A DNA stretch of 35,795 nucleotides from positions 1-35,795 of the forward strand of contig NZ_CP014607.1 in NCBI RefSeq assembly GCF_001584725.1. Reading direction: 5' to 3'. The DNA is from an endosymbiont 'TC1' of Trimyema compressum. GTDB taxonomy: Bacteria > Bacillota > TC1. This document shows positions 5,320-34,865 of this stretch, piece by piece (the stretch's first letter is position 1; each line of letters opens with the position of its first letter). The notes under the pieces were generated by a model. It was not told the origin of the DNA, ran no database searches, and saw only the letters and a program-made list of their open reading frames with translations. The translations under genes and the position numbers were made by a program.

Positions 5320-5607
5320 AGCTCTCTACTGAATCAGACAGGTGCCAGTGACAGCATATGAGTTCAATCTCATCTATTATCTGTTTGACAGGAGTATCTC
5401 AGACCTGTGACTCAATTCTTTTTGCCTTTTGGCCGTCGTGGATAAAAGTAAAGCAATCGTTGCAGTACAGCTACCCCTCAATGGGAAGAATTCTGTCAAG
5501 ACCCACATTCATATCCTTTATTCTAGAGTAAAATTTTACCTAGATAGGTGCCAGGATGGCTTATTTTTTACCATCATTTTATTCTGGACAGGACCGTCAA
5601 AACCTAT
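5320..5607 (+). other. Less AT-rich insert, possible decayed mobile-element fragment
   Basis: This stretch has clearly more G and C and a different word use from its surroundings. It repeats GGTGCCAG at 5342 and 5549 and holds an open frame from TTG 5429 (MAVVDKSKAIVAVQLPLN…) of about 58 codons that runs into the 11-bp repeat array. It may be the start of a transposase-like gene left by an insertion, but I do not recognise the family and see no terminal inverted repeats. Confidence 0.3.
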
Positions 5608-5706
5608 ATGTGTTTTTTATGTGTTTTTTATGTGTTTTTTATGTGTTTTTTATGTGTTTTTTATGTGTTTTTTATGTGTTTTTTATGTGTTTTTTATGTG
5701 TTTTTT
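5608..5706. repeat. 11-bp tandem repeat ATGTGTTTTTT, 9 units
   Basis: Nine perfect copies of ATGTGTTTTTT, 11 bp each, with T runs phased at about one helical turn. Phased A/T tracts bend DNA, so this may be a curved DNA segment of an origin or promoter region. Repeat number is likely to vary by slippage. The rest of 4595-5839 holds no gene that I can support. Confidence 0.75.
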
Positions 5707-8637: not shown

Positions 8638-9039
8638 TTACAAATTGTAACTTACAAATCCTAATATAACAGTTATAATCATTGTGATAAATATAGCCTT
8701 TGAAGTATTTCTTTCCGCTGTTAATCTTTTTTCAGCCTCTTTACGCTCTTCACTTAATCTATCCTCAGCTATTTTACGCTCTTCACTTAATCTAGCCTCA
8801 GCTATTTTACGCTCTTCACTTAATCTTCTTTCTTCCGCTCTTAATCTTTTTTCAGCCTCTTTACGCTCTTCACTTAATCTTCTTTCTTCCGCTCTTAACC
8901 TAGCCTCAGCCTCTTTACGCTCTTCACTTAATCTAGCCTCAGCAAATCTTCTGTCTTCATCCATCTTAGCTAGAAATCTTTGCATAAACTTTTCGTGTTC
9001 ATAAAAGACATCCTTTTCAACGTAGTTTTTATTTTCCAT
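8638..9039 (-). CDS. Coiled-coil repeat protein with C-terminal membrane anchor, member 1
   Basis: 133 residues. Residues 1-32 form a conserved head (VEKDVF, EHEKFMQRFLAKMDEDRRF). Residues about 33-108 are 11-residue repeats of the type ARLSEERKEAE, giving a long charged coiled coil. Then comes AERNTSKA and a C-terminal hydrophobic segment (about 112-130) that should anchor it in the membrane. Two paralogues lie at 29811 and 30275, all with the same leader AAGGAGAGATTAAA before the ATG. The number and order of repeats differ, as expected for slippage. No enzyme motif. Head, variable coiled coil and tail anchor is also the plan of Borrelia Bdr proteins, which are likewise carried on phage-plasmids; I infer analogy, not homology. 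Function unknown. Confidence 0.75.
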   Translation of the reverse strand: MENKNYVEKDVFYEHEKFMQRFLAKMDEDRRFAEARLSEERKEAEARLRAEERRLSEERKEAEKRLRAEERRLSEERKIAEARLSEERKIAEDRLSEERKEAEKRLTAERNTSKAIFITMIITVILGFVSYNL

Positions 9040-10654: not shown

Positions 10655-10671
10655 AAAATATTCCCCCTCCT

Positions 10672-10995
10672 TAATACAAAGATATATATTAATACAAAGA
10701 TATATATTAATACAAAGATATATATTAATACAAAGATATATATTAATACAAAGATATATATTAATACAAAGATATATATTAATACAAAGATATATATTAA
10801 TACAAAGATATATATTAATACAAAGATATATATTAATACAAAGATATATATTAATACAAAGATATATATTAATACAAAGATATATATTAATACAAAGATA
10901 TATATTAATACAAAGATATATATTAATACAAAGATATATATTAATACAAAGATATATATTAATACAAAGATATATATTAATACAAAGATATATAT
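10672..10995. repeat. 18-bp tandem array, 18 perfect units
   Basis: Eighteen head-to-tail copies of an 18-bp unit reading TAATACAAAGATATATAT (plus strand), ending 17 bp upstream of the AEP primase start. All units are identical, which implies recent expansion or homogenisation. It may be an iteron origin or an autoregulatory operator for that protein. In the minus strand it reads as (INIYLC)n in frame with the gene, which I regard as accidental. Confidence 0.85.
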
Positions 10996-11081
10996 TAATT
11001 ATATGTGGGGACATACAGGACATACAGGACGCTTATTTTATCAATGTTTTTTGTACACTTTATATTTATAATACTACATCA

Positions 11082-20302: not shown

Positions 20303-20622
20303 TATTTTATCCTTCCTAATACTATATCTATTCTCCTCTCTTTATAGTCTTCATAAATATTTTTTATTTCATATAACGTGTTATTTATACGGACTAAATC
20401 TGTAGCTTTAAGCGTTTTAAAAATCAAGGGAATCCTAACAGACAGGTCAATTGAATAACTTTCCTGCCTTGCTAATTCTTTATCGTTATTAGAAATTCGT
20501 CGTTTTTGAAAAAAACTAGAAAAAAGAACAACCAGATTTGTGTCTTCCAGTTGTCCCATATTATTCTTTGCTTTTTGCATTTCACAAACTTCTAAAATAC
20601 CATCTCTTAGCTCGTTAATCAT
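20302..20622 (-). CDS. Head-tail joining protein (SPP1 gp16 / HK97 adaptor-like)
   Basis: 106 residues. The beta-barrel pattern LVVLFSSFFQKRRIS, SYSIDLSVRIP and TLYEIKNIYEDYKERRIDIV matches the head-tail adaptor family (Phage_H_T_join). It closes the portal channel. It starts 8 bp inside the end of the connector gene. Confidence 0.7.
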   Translation of the reverse strand: MINELRDGILEVCEMQKAKNNMGQLEDTNLVVLFSSFFQKRRISNNDKELARQESYSIDLSVRIPLIFKTLKATDLVRINNTLYEIKNIYEDYKERRIDIVLGRIK

Positions 20623-20944
20623 TAAAATCTCCTGCCATTAAATCTCCCTTTATTTGCCATAAAAAATTAGTAAATATAGGATTTTGCATTGCTTTATCTA
20701 CTAACATGCTTCTATTTTCATAAAGCTGAGCAACTAACATATTAATTAATATATCGGTTCTTTTATCTTGCATAGCCATTAAAAGGATTTTATCTTGCAT
20801 TTCTTTATCTTTTGTTTTCATGTCTATATAGCTATTAAAACTGCTCCTTATGTAGCTTTCAGCAGAATCAATTAAGCGAATGATTAAACTATCTTCGTCA
20901 TTATGGATAACCCTTAAAAATAGCTTCGTTTCTTCTAGTTTCAT
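20615..20944 (-). CDS. Head-tail connector, gp6-like
   Basis: 109 residues, all helical, with EETKLFLRVIHNDEDSLI at the start, IDSAESYIRSSF and LVAQLYENRSM: the standard pattern of gp6/gp15-type connectors that sit under the portal. ATG 20944 follows GGTAAATATAGG, a modest ribosome site. It lies 21 bp after the stop of the putative capsid extension frame. Confidence 0.8.
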   Translation of the reverse strand: MKLEETKLFLRVIHNDEDSLIIRLIDSAESYIRSSFNSYIDMKTKDKEMQDKILLMAMQDKRTDILINMLVAQLYENRSMLVDKAMQNPIFTNFLWQIKGDLMAGDFND

Positions 20945-20965: not shown

Positions 20966-21145
20966 TTATTTTTTTTTATTTTTTGGCGTTGTTAATCCAA
21001 TATAATCTGTTACTGATCTCAAATAACTTTCTCCGTCTTCTTCGACTTTTCCATCTTCTTTGACTTCTCTGTCTACTTCGACTTTTCCATCTTCTTTGAC
21101 TTCTCTGTCTACTTCGACTTTTGGTGAAGAATGCAAATTAATTAC
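20966..21145 (-). CDS. Putative -1 frameshift extension of the capsid protein (59 residues)
   Basis: The capsid gene ends GAG TTT AAA AAA AAG TAA. A_AAA_AAG is a canonical -1 slippery heptamer in the correct phase. After the slip, the frame stays open for 59 codons to TAA at 20966: VINLHSSP, two copies of the 12-residue unit KVEVDREVKEDG, a third partial one, then SYLRSVTDYIGLTTPKNKKK. A minority of capsid subunits would carry this tail, as in T7 (10A/10B) and Listeria phage PSA. No ribosome site precedes the segment; the only start would be a TTG inside it. The repeats are also visible in DNA as 36-bp units. Confidence 0.55.
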   Translation of the reverse strand, partial: VINLHSSPKVEVDREVKEDGKVEVDREVKEDGKVEEDGESYLRSVTDYIGLTTPKNKKK

Positions 21146-22344
21146 TTTTTTTTAAACTCAATTAAAGCTACCCCATTAGTATCAATTACATCTCCATCGG
21201 CCGCAGTTGCAAATAAATAGCCTTGATTATAACCCCCTAATACAGCTGTGTCATAATTTGTAATATCCATTTCTACAGCTATATTAAAATAATAAGCTGT
21301 TTGTAAATCCCCATAAATCATTGTGTTATCAGGAATAATATCAGATATAATAACTGGTACACCTAAGACCTGGCCGTTAAAACTATCTCCATATCCAATT
21401 ATTTGGAAAATAGGTCTATCATTTTTATCACTGATCGTATCTAATTCTCCTAATGTTTTTCTATTAAAATATAAAACTGATTTCTGAGCATAGGGAGCGG
21501 TTAATGTACTTCTAAGTGTTGTTGCTATATTTTTATAGTTAAATTCTATATTTATTTTAGAGTTACTTAAAGCCGGTACAATCCCTTTTGGTTGAGTTTC
21601 CCCTGTTCCGTTAATAATCATATTATCAAAGGCTAGCGCAAGTGATGATGATACTTTTTCAATAATATAATTTTCTAGATTAAACATGGATACCTGTAAT
21701 AATAGCTTTGAAATTTCTACTCTGACAGTTGCTAATTTAGGTTTTAATGTTTTTTTACTAAAAATCGGAGTTTCACTTAAAGTTCTAGGCCCTTCATGAT
21801 CCCCTGCCCATTGCACTACGATATCTGAATTATCATAGATTAAGTCTATATTACCAGGTACATAAGATATCCCCACTCTTGGTAAAATAACTGAAGTATT
21901 TAAAATTTTAGTTATAATTTGATCGTAAATAATAGTTGGAACAACTAATGATCCCTTATTTTTTCCTACATTTCCTTCATTTAGGTTTGTTGCCCTAAAT
22001 TCTCTGTACTCTTCAAAAGGTTTTCTATCACCAGTTGCTATTGATCTAAAACTATTAATAAATAGATCTTTTTCTAGGGTTTGTATTTCAGTTTTGGATA
22101 AAAAATCCATATTTAGATTGCCTTTTCTAAATTCTTGTAATAAATCTGTCATTTTCTTTTCTTTCCCTTCTTTTGTTGTTTTGTTTTTAAGTTCATTTTC
22201 CATATTTTTCTTAATTTTTTCTATTTCTGCCTCTTTTTTTTCTATACTCTCCATAAGGGATTCAACGTCATTTGAGTCTTCTATATTTCCGCTTTCCCTA
22301 ATAGCTTTTAATTGCTCTATTTCTGCCTTTCTTTTTTGATTCAA
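21142..22344 (-). CDS. Major capsid protein, HK97 family (frameshifted start)
   Basis: Forms the icosahedral head. The N-terminal 90 residues are a charged coiled coil (the delta/scaffold domain), then comes the HK97 fold: GSLVVPTIIYDQII, SETPIFSKKTLKPKLATVRV, AFDNMIINGTGETQPKGIVP and VLGVPVIISDII. This frame has only a TTG at 22344 without ribosome site. A good start, ATG 22399 after GGAG, opens MEKTEKELNFEFRTKITEIE in another frame; losing one A from the six-A run at 22332-22337 would join them into the expected capsid N terminus. So either the run slips, the base is an error, or the gene is damaged. The C terminus holds a second slippery site. Confidence 0.85.
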   Translation of the reverse strand: MNQKRKAEIEQLKAIRESGNIEDSNDVESLMESIEKKEAEIEKIKKNMENELKNKTTKEGKEKKMTDLLQEFRKGNLNMDFLSKTEIQTLEKDLFINSFRSIATGDRKPFEEYREFRATNLNEGNVGKNKGSLVVPTIIYDQIITKILNTSVILPRVGISYVPGNIDLIYDNSDIVVQWAGDHEGPRTLSETPIFSKKTLKPKLATVRVEISKLLLQVSMFNLENYIIEKVSSSLALAFDNMIINGTGETQPKGIVPALSNSKINIEFNYKNIATTLRSTLTAPYAQKSVLYFNRKTLGELDTISDKNDRPIFQIIGYGDSFNGQVLGVPVIISDIIPDNTMIYGDLQTAYYFNIAVEMDITNYDTAVLGGYNQGYLFATAADGDVIDTNGVALIEFKKK

Positions 22345-22431
22345 TTTCAGTTATTTTTGTTCTGAATTCAAAATTCAATTCTTTTTCTGTTTTTTCCATA
22401 TTTTTCTCCGTTCGTCTTTCGTTTTTTTGAT

Positions 22432-24575: not shown

Positions 24576-25580
24576 ATGGATAATGTTACCAATGCACAAA
24601 ATTTAGAAAAAAATAAACCTTATAAAAAATTCAAAAAAAACAATCTAGTAGTCCAGGACAATATGTTAATAACAGCAACTTATAAAATGAATAGGAATGA
24701 ATTATTAGCTTTTAAACAAATAATATCTCAAGTTAACACAAAAAATAAAAGCAAAATTGTTCAAATAACTAAAGGAGATATTATTAAATTTATTTTTCCT
24801 AATGCACAAAAAGTAAAATCTCATAGTATAGATAGTAAATATTATCAGGTTTGTAAGAAATATTATCTCTCTTTAATAGAGACCTCTATAATGATAAACC
24901 AATTATCTAAGAATATTATTTCTGATGTACACTGGGAAAGTGATTCTAACATAGTAACTATAAAATTTTCTGACGATATTATGCCTTTTATTTATGGACT
25001 TAAAAAGAATTTTACTAAATATCAAATAGGCTACCTAGTAAAGCTAAAATCAAAATATTCAATTCTTTTATATGAGTATTATAAAATGCACTCATATAAT
25101 AAAAAAGGTAATTGTAGTTGGAATGAGTCTGTAAACAATATAAGAAATATGCTTAATATTAAAACAAAATACAAAGAATATAGTTTATTCAATCAAGATA
25201 TTCTTAAAAATTCCCAACAACAAATCAATGAGCATACGGATATACATATCGAATATAAAGCCCTCAAAAATACAGCTGATGGTAAAATTGTTACAGATAT
25301 TAAATTCACCGTTACGCAAAAGAAAAAGCCTATTCAACAAACTACAATACCACCAGAAAAACTATCTATTCCAAATGCTGGTCCAGGCAGAGATTTTCTA
25401 GAAGCAATAGCAGCTAAAAAACAAAAAACTGTAGAAGAAATTGTTAAAATTAAATCAATAACCATCACTATAGAAGAAAGCCCTAAAACAGAGAGTCAAC
25501 AACCGGTTAAAACACCAGATAAAGCACCTATTAAAAAGCCTTCTATATGGAATAAGTTTAAATCTATCTTTAAGCATTAA
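24576..25580 (+). CDS. Rep_3-family replication initiator (rep2), with C-terminal tail
   Basis: 334 residues. The Rep_3 core (about 25-245) has TYKMNRNELLAFKQIISQVN, NFTKYQIGYLVKLKSKYSIL and ILKNSQQQINEHTDIHIEY, matching rep1 closely in layout. Residues 246-334 are a Pro/Lys/Glu-rich tail that ends in PSIWNKFKSIFKH, an amphipathic end also seen in rep3 (IRKKFNNIFKYD) and the mini-Rep (ESWFKKLTNSLLGLFK). ATG 24576 has TAGGAGG. It sits on the opposite strand between terminase and portal, an odd place that interrupts the late gene order. No iterons lie next to it. Confidence 0.8.
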   Translation: MDNVTNAQNLEKNKPYKKFKKNNLVVQDNMLITATYKMNRNELLAFKQIISQVNTKNKSKIVQITKGDIIKFIFPNAQKVKSHSIDSKYYQVCKKYYLSLIETSIMINQLSKNIISDVHWESDSNIVTIKFSDDIMPFIYGLKKNFTKYQIGYLVKLKSKYSILLYEYYKMHSYNKKGNCSWNESVNNIRNMLNIKTKYKEYSLFNQDILKNSQQQINEHTDIHIEYKALKNTADGKIVTDIKFTVTQKKKPIQQTTIPPEKLSIPNAGPGRDFLEAIAAKKQKTVEEIVKIKSITITIEESPKTESQQPVKTPDKAPIKKPSIWNKFKSIFKH

Positions 25581-29810: not shown

Positions 29811-30230
29811 TTAACTTAATATGTATTGTAAATTAATGCCGAAATGTCGAATAGCTATCATAATAACACCAGTAACCTCTAATATAATAATTATAACCAT
29901 TGCGATAATCATAGCCTTTGAAGTATTTCTTTCCGCTCTTAACCTTTCCTCAGCCTCTTTACGTTCTTCACTTAATCTAGTCTCAAACTCTTTATCTTTA
30001 CGTTCTTCACTTAATCTAGCCTCAAACTCTTTACGCCTTTCACTTAGCCTAGCCTCAAACTCTTTACGTTCTTCACTTAATCTTCTTTCAGCAAATATTC
30101 TTTTTTCTGCTAATAATCTAGTCTCAGCCTCAGTAAGTCTTATGTATTCATCCATATCAGCTAGAACTCTTTCCCTAAACTTTTCATGTTCAGAAAAGAA
30201 ATCCTTTTCAACGTCGCTCTTATTTCCCAT
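29811..30230 (-). CDS. Coiled-coil repeat protein with membrane anchor, member 2
   Basis: 139 residues. Head VEKDFFSEHEKFRERVLADM; then 11-residue repeats of the form ARLSEERKEFE, one of them interrupted by an extra DKE; then AERNTSKA and a long hydrophobic segment (about 106-128), ending in a 10-residue tail absent from the other members. It follows member 3 by 44 bp and has the same ribosome site AAGGAGAGATTAAA. It is the most diverged of the three. Function unknown; membrane-bound oligomer likely. Confidence 0.75.
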   Translation of the reverse strand: MGNKSDVEKDFFSEHEKFRERVLADMDEYIRLTEAETRLLAEKRIFAERRLSEERKEFEARLSERRKEFEARLSEERKDKEFETRLSEERKEAEERLRAERNTSKAMIIAMVIIIILEVTGVIMIAIRHFGINLQYILS

Positions 30231-30274: not shown

Positions 30275-30685
30275 TTAAATAGATGGTAATATAATACTTA
30301 TAAACCCTAATATAATAGTTATAAACCCTAATATAATAGTTACAATCATTGTGATAAATATAGCCTTTGAAGTATTTCTTTCTGCTATTAATCTATCCTC
30401 AGCTATTTTACGCTCTTCACTTAACCTAGCCTCAGAATCTTTACGCTCTTCATTTAACCTAGCCTCAGCTATTTTACGTTCTTCACTTAATCTTTTTTCT
30501 TCTGCTAATAACCTAGCCTCAGCCGCTTTACGCTCTTCACTTAACCTAGCCTCAGCCTCTTTACGCTCTTCACTTAATCTTCTTTCAGCAAATCTTCTGT
30601 CTTCATCCATCTTAGCTAGAAATCTTTGCATAAACTTTTCGTGTTCAGAAAAGACATCCTTTTCAACGTAGCTCTTATTTTCCAT
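30275..30685 (-). CDS. Coiled-coil repeat protein with membrane anchor, member 3
   Basis: 136 residues. The head (VEKDVFSEHEKFMQRFLAKM, then DEDRRFAERR) is nearly identical to member 1, followed by seven to eight 11-residue repeats (ARLSEERKAAE type) and AERNTSKAIFITMIV, a membrane anchor that is followed by a short duplication (LGFITIILGFISIIL). It is the first gene of the transcript from the promoter at 31155-31183, behind a ~460-nt leader whose distal part is leader copy 2. ATG 30685 with AAGGAGAGA. Confidence 0.75.
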   Translation of the reverse strand: MENKSYVEKDVFSEHEKFMQRFLAKMDEDRRFAERRLSEERKEAEARLSEERKAAEARLLAEEKRLSEERKIAEARLNEERKDSEARLSEERKIAEDRLIAERNTSKAIFITMIVTIILGFITIILGFISIILPSI

Positions 30686-33971: not shown

Positions 33972-34865
33972 TTATTTTTTCTTACGTTTCAGTATATCAT
34001 ATTTAAAAATATTATTAAATTTTTTTCGAATTCTTTTCGCTGTTTTTTTCACCCTATCCGTAACACTATCCTTAACACTATTCTTAACACTATTCTTAAC
34101 CCTATTCTTAACCCTATTCTTAACACTGAATTCAATAGCTATTACCTCGCAGCCACCTTTAATTGATTTATACTCTATGTTAAAGTTTGTTTTTCTTGTT
34201 TCTAATCCATTTAACATGAATGTTGACTGAAGCTCTTTGATAGCTAGATCTAAGACTCCTTTACGTAGTTCTTTGAATTCTTTATATTTGTTTTGTACTC
34301 CTAGCATTCGTCTGAACTCACTTAAAGATATCGTCCAAGTATAGGCTGTATAATGCACCATCATATTAAAATATTCATATAGTCTAACTGCATATTTGCT
34401 TTTCATATATTTTAGTCTACCCACTTCATATTTTGTAAAATTCTTTTGTAAATTAAATATATATGGCGCAATATCTTCTGAAAATGATATTTTTACTAGA
34501 CTTTCATTTTTTTTCCATTCCACATGAGAACACGGTGCAGTATATATATATTTTTTTTTATCTTTTATTACTACTTCCACTTCTGTTAATCTCATAAAAT
34601 AGTCTTTACATTTTTTATAGTATCCTCCTGAAATATTATTAGCTTTTGTTTTTTCAAGAGAAGGGAATATAAATCTGAGAACATCTGCTTTTTTAAGTGA
34701 AACTTCCCTAAAATTAGGATTATTATTACTTGTATCAATAGCAGAAACTACCATTTTAAAGGCTAAGAGTTCATTTAAATTCATTTTATGTTCAGCCATA
34801 ATTAATGCATTGCTTTGAACGATTTGATGATAGGGTTTTAGTTTTCCCTTACAATATTTCATCAT
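33972..34865 (-). CDS. Rep_3-family replication initiator (rep3), frameshifted N terminus
   Basis: 297 residues. Core: EHKMNLNELLAFKMVVSAID, NFTKYEVGRLKYMKSKYAVR, and FRRMLGVQNKYKEFKELRKG. Residues about 244-280 are short VKNSVK-type repeats (12-bp DNA units at 34052-34127), then IRKKFNNIFKYD. Upstream, ATG 34914 with TAGGAGG is in a stretch nearly identical to rep2 (MDNVTNTQNLEKK against MDNVTNAQNLEKN) but in another frame: an eight-A run (34876-34883) has one A more than rep2. With seven A the two frames join. Otherwise the 21-codon upstream frame overlaps ATG 34865 and could couple translation. Closely related to rep2; likely a duplication. Confidence 0.8.
   Translation of the reverse strand: MMKYCKGKLKPYHQIVQSNALIMAEHKMNLNELLAFKMVVSAIDTSNNNPNFREVSLKKADVLRFIFPSLEKTKANNISGGYYKKCKDYFMRLTEVEVVIKDKKKYIYTAPCSHVEWKKNESLVKISFSEDIAPYIFNLQKNFTKYEVGRLKYMKSKYAVRLYEYFNMMVHYTAYTWTISLSEFRRMLGVQNKYKEFKELRKGVLDLAIKELQSTFMLNGLETRKTNFNIEYKSIKGGCEVIAIEFSVKNRVKNRVKNSVKNSVKDSVTDRVKKTAKRIRKKFNNIFKYDILKRKKK

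Follow-up and report, generated by a model that had tools for sequence, protein, structure and literature searches.

Replicon and Gene Content

The window analyzed here, 35,795 bp in length, is a complete contig (C2) of the endosymbiont TC1 genome, which totals 1.62 Mb; the remaining contig is the 1.59 Mb chromosome, and homologs of its proteins suggest a Bacillota genome. C2 contains a full head-tail module, consisting of TerL, portal, S78 protease, HK97-type capsid, connector, and tail genes, and three distinct Rep_3 initiator genes (488-1261, 24576-25580, and 33972-34865) on the same 35.8 kb replicon. Because the head-tail module and the three Rep_3 genes occur together, the contig is best read, from its gene content, as a phage-plasmid. 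Both of its ends fall inside an iteron-like array of 22-nt repeats, suggesting that the molecule is circular. Apart from the capsid gene, the head and tail genes of C2 appear intact. Single-protein searches of phages, plasmids, IMG/VR, and GTDB contigs yielded nothing closely related to the capsid or the terminase. An alignment of five capsid sequences contained no stretch sufficiently conserved to serve as a search query, and a pattern scan of IMG/VR with ACNAAAAAAAGCNTAG was discarded because the unrelated matches were too numerous.

The Capsid Gene and the Slip Site at Its End

The major capsid protein is encoded on the minus strand (0 frame, 21142-22344) and has the HK97 fold (Phage_capsid PF05065, E = 6.8e-36; PHROG_10, major head protein). 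Its assignment as an HK97-type capsid agrees with the neighboring genes, a prohead protease (PF04586) upstream and a connector (PF05135) downstream. The latter is a gp6-like head-tail connector encoded by the next gene (minus strand, 20615-20944; E = 1.2e-9), and this gene order is the same as in L009, a comparator from the same bacterial order. When the capsid was aligned with its relatives (ADGKPVLDEAFVKVTQATA versus ADGDVIDTNGVALIEFKKK), the 0-frame stop coincided with the natural C-terminal end of the relatives' proteins. Judged from this coincidence, the 0-frame stop closes a complete capsid body, to which the predicted tail in the -1 frame is additional.

The 3' end of the minus-strand capsid frame reads GAG TTT AAA AAA AAG TAA. 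As the initial annotation had proposed, this end contains the slippery heptamer A_AAA_AAG in the phase required for a -1 shift (minus strand, 21151-21145); the heptamer lies within an A8 run (21146-21153) with the G at 21145, and the 0-frame stop TAA (21142-21144) follows immediately 3' of it. The heptamer has the X_XXY_YYZ form in 0-frame phase and is located inside the frame overlap. The 0 and -1 frames overlap across the A run alone, with one TAA closing the -1 frame just upstream and the other closing the 0 frame just downstream. Among the 50 ORFs of at least 100 aa on both strands of the contig, in-phase A_AAA_AAG was detected seven times, and only once immediately before a stop.

A_AAA_AAG is very shift-prone where one tRNA decodes both lysine codons (PMC5009743). 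The 34 tRNA genes of the host include two for tRNA-Lys(UUU) and none for a CUU species, so a single tRNA-Lys type reads both AAA and AAG, and slipping at A_AAA_AAG is thereby favored. RNA folding, which had been put forward as a check for a stimulatory hairpin after the site, revealed a weak fold and no clear hairpin (z of -0.9 to -1.3, pseudoknot-free folding), so that a stimulatory hairpin is not supported here. No Shine-Dalgarno-like stimulator was seen at a distance of 10-14 nt upstream of the slip site.

The -1 Frame Extension

Beyond the capsid stop, the -1 frame is open for 59 codons plus a stop (minus strand, 20966-21144); its first codon, GTA, begins from G21145, inside the heptamer. 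It translates as KK-VINLHSSPKVEVDREVKEDGKVEVDREVKEDGKVEEDGESYLRSVTDYIGLTTPKNKKK-stop, ending at 20966, and consists of VINLHSSP, two copies of KVEVDREVKEDG, KVEEDG, and GESYLRSVTDYIGLTTPKNKKK, in this order. The predicted fusion junction is EFKK-VINLHSSPK. Tandem Repeats Finder (TRF) reported a 36-nt tandem repeat of 2.6 copies with 96% match, whose unit is KVEVDREVKEDG (minus strand, 21029-21122), which bears out the roughly two and a half copies of a 12-residue unit first described in this open frame. The C-terminal piece, GESYLRSVTDYIGLTTPKNKKK (minus strand, 20969-21028), had no family match.

No start codon with a Shine-Dalgarno sequence was found to open the -1 frame; the nearest start-like codon, TTG at 21136, has no ribosome site, in agreement with the earlier statement that no site for separate translation exists. 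The third frame is likewise open past the capsid stop, for 53 codons. Openness of the -1 frame is therefore weak evidence, and we rejected it as significant by itself. A Markov model, with the host's genes as its training set, gave the -1 frame a coding score of +5.4 log units and the other two frames -39.5 and -27.2, the -1 frame being the sole downstream frame with a positive score. The frame that continues past the capsid stop is thus coding-like and without an independent start.

No relative of the tail was detected in phages, in its own genome, or in Pfam. The collections likewise yielded no close phage with which the site and the tail could be compared codon by codon; the distant capsids share the design, with other modules attached. 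A Rho_N-type domain was considered on the basis of a by-eye likeness of LRSVTDYIGLTT to LRAIAKDLGITG and was rejected after the profile test failed: the tail scored -1.2 bits with the Rho_N profile, below many shuffles, and had no Pfam match, which places it outside the Rho_N/HeH extension class. The Pfam search gave no beta-sandwich (Ig-like or Cadherin-like) match either, so the tail falls outside that class as well.

Tandem repeats are abundant on C2: three EERK-rich proteins contain 33- and 54-nt units and a Rep gene has a 12-nt unit, besides an 18-nt array and 22-nt arrays. The frame-preserving 36-nt unit of the tail is in keeping with this habit of the replicon. Because tandem arrays occur across the replicon, the repeat in the capsid gene says little in favor of a specialized role in the capsid.

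Capsid Extensions in Other Phages

We compared the gene end with a set of 114 non-redundant capsid genes. Slip heptamers at the gene end were associated with start-less -1 extensions (6 of 10 against 1 of 104; P = 5e-7, a value that is optimistic because the set takes in the TC1 capsid gene itself and some related phages). The +1 frame, used as a control, showed none. The comparator capsid proteins are distant, with 18-34% identity.

The same design was found in a prophage of a genome from the same bacterial order (G006, loci L009 and L112), in which the capsid gene ends ACA AAA AAA GCG TAG and opens 93 codons containing a Cadherin-like domain (PF12733, E = 4.5e-8). In the IMG/VR sequences L193-L196 and L450, the A7GCGTAG site, the Cadherin-like domain, and an immediate downstream hairpin are all nearly invariant. 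The TC1 gene shares with these loci the HK97-type capsid, the poly-A slip site followed by a stop, and the -1 extension, and with L009 also the gp6-like connector as the next gene, although capsid identity to L009 is only 18%. It differs in its module, since theirs is a Cadherin-like domain of about 90 aa with a conserved hairpin directly after the site. L009 (2325-2615), L193-L196, and L450 form a strong frameshift family that is apparently unannotated.

Other poly-A sites open other modules, namely CHB_HEX in the -1 extension of L199 and CBM_X2 in that of L187. Rho_N-type -1 extensions were found in L225, which has exactly the same heptamer (A8G), and in L475 and L481. These three share A7-A8 slip sites with the TC1 gene, and their short extensions of 46-67 aa end in a Rho_N-type domain, whereas the TC1 tail fails to score against that domain. 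Folding revealed no hairpin after the L225 site either, in contrast to the clear hairpin of the L009 group. In siblings of L225, the equivalent small Rho_N-type protein is encoded separately, with a TAATG start; in the relatives L216, L441, and others, a small downstream Rho_N-type gene has its own ATG, which overlaps the capsid stop (TAATG). Taken from these sequences, poly-A slip sites seem to be a recurrent feature of capsid gene ends in Bacillota phages, and the modules behind them (Cadherin-like, CHB_HEX, CBM_X2, and Rho_N) may be interchangeable.

Frameshifted capsid extensions are already known as a kind. Coat or tail proteins of T3, A2, A118, and A500 are extended by -1 shifts (PMC5009743). 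T3/T7 gene 10, Lactobacillus phage A2, and Listeria phages A118 and A500 resemble the reading preferred here for the TC1 locus: a structural gene ends in a slip site, and a -1 shift produces a minority longer form with an added C-terminal module (PMC5009743). Their extensions are mostly Ig-like (that of T7 is not); the one predicted here, known from sequence only, is a charged 12-residue repeat with a short unmatched end. Of the two precedents cited in the initial annotation, T7 10A/10B belongs to this group, and Listeria phage PSA does not serve as a -1 case: in its cps gene the shift is +1, on a proline codon, and involves a pseudoknot (PMC5009743). PSA shares with the predicted TC1 product a capsid protein whose alternative C-terminus is made by frameshifting, and differs in direction, its shift being +1 and not -1 on poly-A.

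Frame Breaks and Assembly Quality

The main capsid ORF starts at a TTG without a ribosome site. The probable true N-terminus lies in another frame than the body (minus strand, 22338-22399), beginning at ATG 22399 with GGAG at 22409-22406, a spacing of 6 nt, and a coding score of +4.7. This segment encodes MEKTEKELNFEFRTKITEIESK, and its end, read on into the main frame (..TEIES / KAEIEQL..), matches KEIESRKAEIRGL of a relative, L004. A +1 frame change is therefore required at an A6 run (minus strand, 22332-22337) to reach the main capsid frame; it is a probable indel, either a sequencing error or real. A programmed shift this near the capsid start would be odd, and the break is read most simply as one of the assembly's uncorrected indels. 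The frame break in the start region (minus strand, 22298-22409) was absent from the initial annotation, as were the indel-rich assembly and the +1 direction of the PSA shift.

The host assembly contains uncorrected indels, many of them in homopolymers. The survey covered about 600 kb of the host chromosome, against which sister-genus proteins were aligned, and 400 kb from the sister genome. Within about 170 kb of aligned conserved host genes, 14 frame-breaking indels were detected, compared with none in the reverse test. The broken genes encode a ClpC-type ATPase, polyphosphate kinase, and pyrimidine-nucleoside phosphorylase (two breaks each), as well as CinA, exonuclease III, PNP, PgeF, and others. 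A frame-tracking model gave 2.9 non-junction frame switches per 10 kb in the host and 0.64 in the sister; together with the 14 versus 0 breaks, this rate indicates that the assembly carries uncorrected indels. Among homopolymer events, -1 switches, corresponding to single-base losses, exceeded +1 switches. The conserved genes cut by indels, often homopolymeric, were seen on the host chromosome (G000:C1, L056-L065 and L086-L105), unlike in the sister genus (G002).

Frames that meet only across a homopolymer form a pattern that an indel would also produce. If the true run at the capsid end were A9, the capsid would be one continuous chain, the tail would be present on every subunit, and no frameshifting would take place. 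The frame breaks and switch rate of the host genes, the excess of single-base losses, and the A6 break near the start of the same gene all point in this direction. However, among the 45 coding A8 runs of the chromosome sample, a single one switches frame. The genes of C2 contain 21 A8, 3 A9, and 1 A10 runs, and these 25 others sit in intact frames; the frame model placed mid-gene switches on C2 at the two capsid runs only. Moreover, none of the 114 non-redundant capsid proteins carries an in-frame tail of at least 20 aa, so that a tail fused to every subunit would be unusual in its own right. On these three counts, the C-terminal shift is possibly, but less likely, an assembly error, and we regard an A9 run as rather improbable.

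Somewhat less probable still is a degenerate or untranslated tail, arising from real indels in the capsid gene of a decaying phage-plasmid or from a -1 frame that is not expressed. Two frame discontinuities in one gene, the openness of more than one frame across the repeat region, and the richness of the replicon in tandem repeats are consistent with this explanation, whereas the intact appearance of the remaining head and tail genes and the coding composition of the -1 frame argue against it. A separate small protein made from TTG 21136 by termination-reinitiation after the capsid stop is very improbable, because that codon is not an ATG and has no Shine-Dalgarno sequence near it, even though L216, L441, and others have a downstream Rho_N-type gene that starts with its own ATG.

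A Programmed -1 Shift as the Preferred Interpretation

We consider programmed -1 frameshifting at the capsid end, or equivalent slipping by RNA polymerase, to be the best explanation of the locus, and a reasonably probable one. The shift had been proposed initially, and that proposal stands in part: the in-phase heptamer, the coding-like frame without a start, the host's tRNA-Lys(UUU), and the comparators speak for it. The assembly indels, the A6 break, and the lack of a clear hairpin speak against it; given these and the absence of a relative of the tail, the shift is not established.

In the proposed mechanism, most ribosomes would stop at the TAA at 21144, the product being the ordinary capsid subunit (about 400 aa or more). 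The others, a minority, would slip back by one base on A_AAA_AAG, with both tRNA-Lys re-pairing with AAA AAA, and would decode 59 further codons, so that their subunit would carry a linker of charged repeats followed by a short terminal segment. Slippage of RNA polymerase on the A8 run would give an identical product. We infer slipping at this site, an accurate A8 count, and entry of the tail into the head. Ig-like capsid extensions have been proposed to act in surface decoration or adhesion, and by analogy the tail would most likely be a module of the same kind. More tentatively, and with some doubt on our part, the number of tandem repeats in this slip-made tail may vary, such that the charged extension on a minority of subunits would change in length by gain or loss of repeats while the normal subunit stayed constant.

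If the programmed -1 shift is real, charged tandem repeats would be another type of module attached to capsids in this way, here in a plasmid-like phage. Such capsid extensions would tend to escape gene callers, and apparent recoding sites in homopolymers need to be checked against assembly error.

Other Features of the Replicon

A gene for a sodium:neurotransmitter symporter (SNF family) is located at 32580-33965 of C2 and is unusual cargo for a phage-plasmid. Three paralogous EERK/LSEE-rich proteins (8638-9039, 29811-30230, and 30275-30685) contain the 33- and 54-nt in-frame tandem repeats and have a membrane-like C-terminal segment. The 12-nt unit lies in the tail of the Rep gene at 33972-34865, and a perfect 11-nt tandem repeat of 9 copies occupies a non-coding stretch at 5607-5706. 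The 18-nt array (10671-10999) consists of 18 perfect copies, is partly open in several frames, and is located directly upstream of a replication-like ORF of 454 aa.
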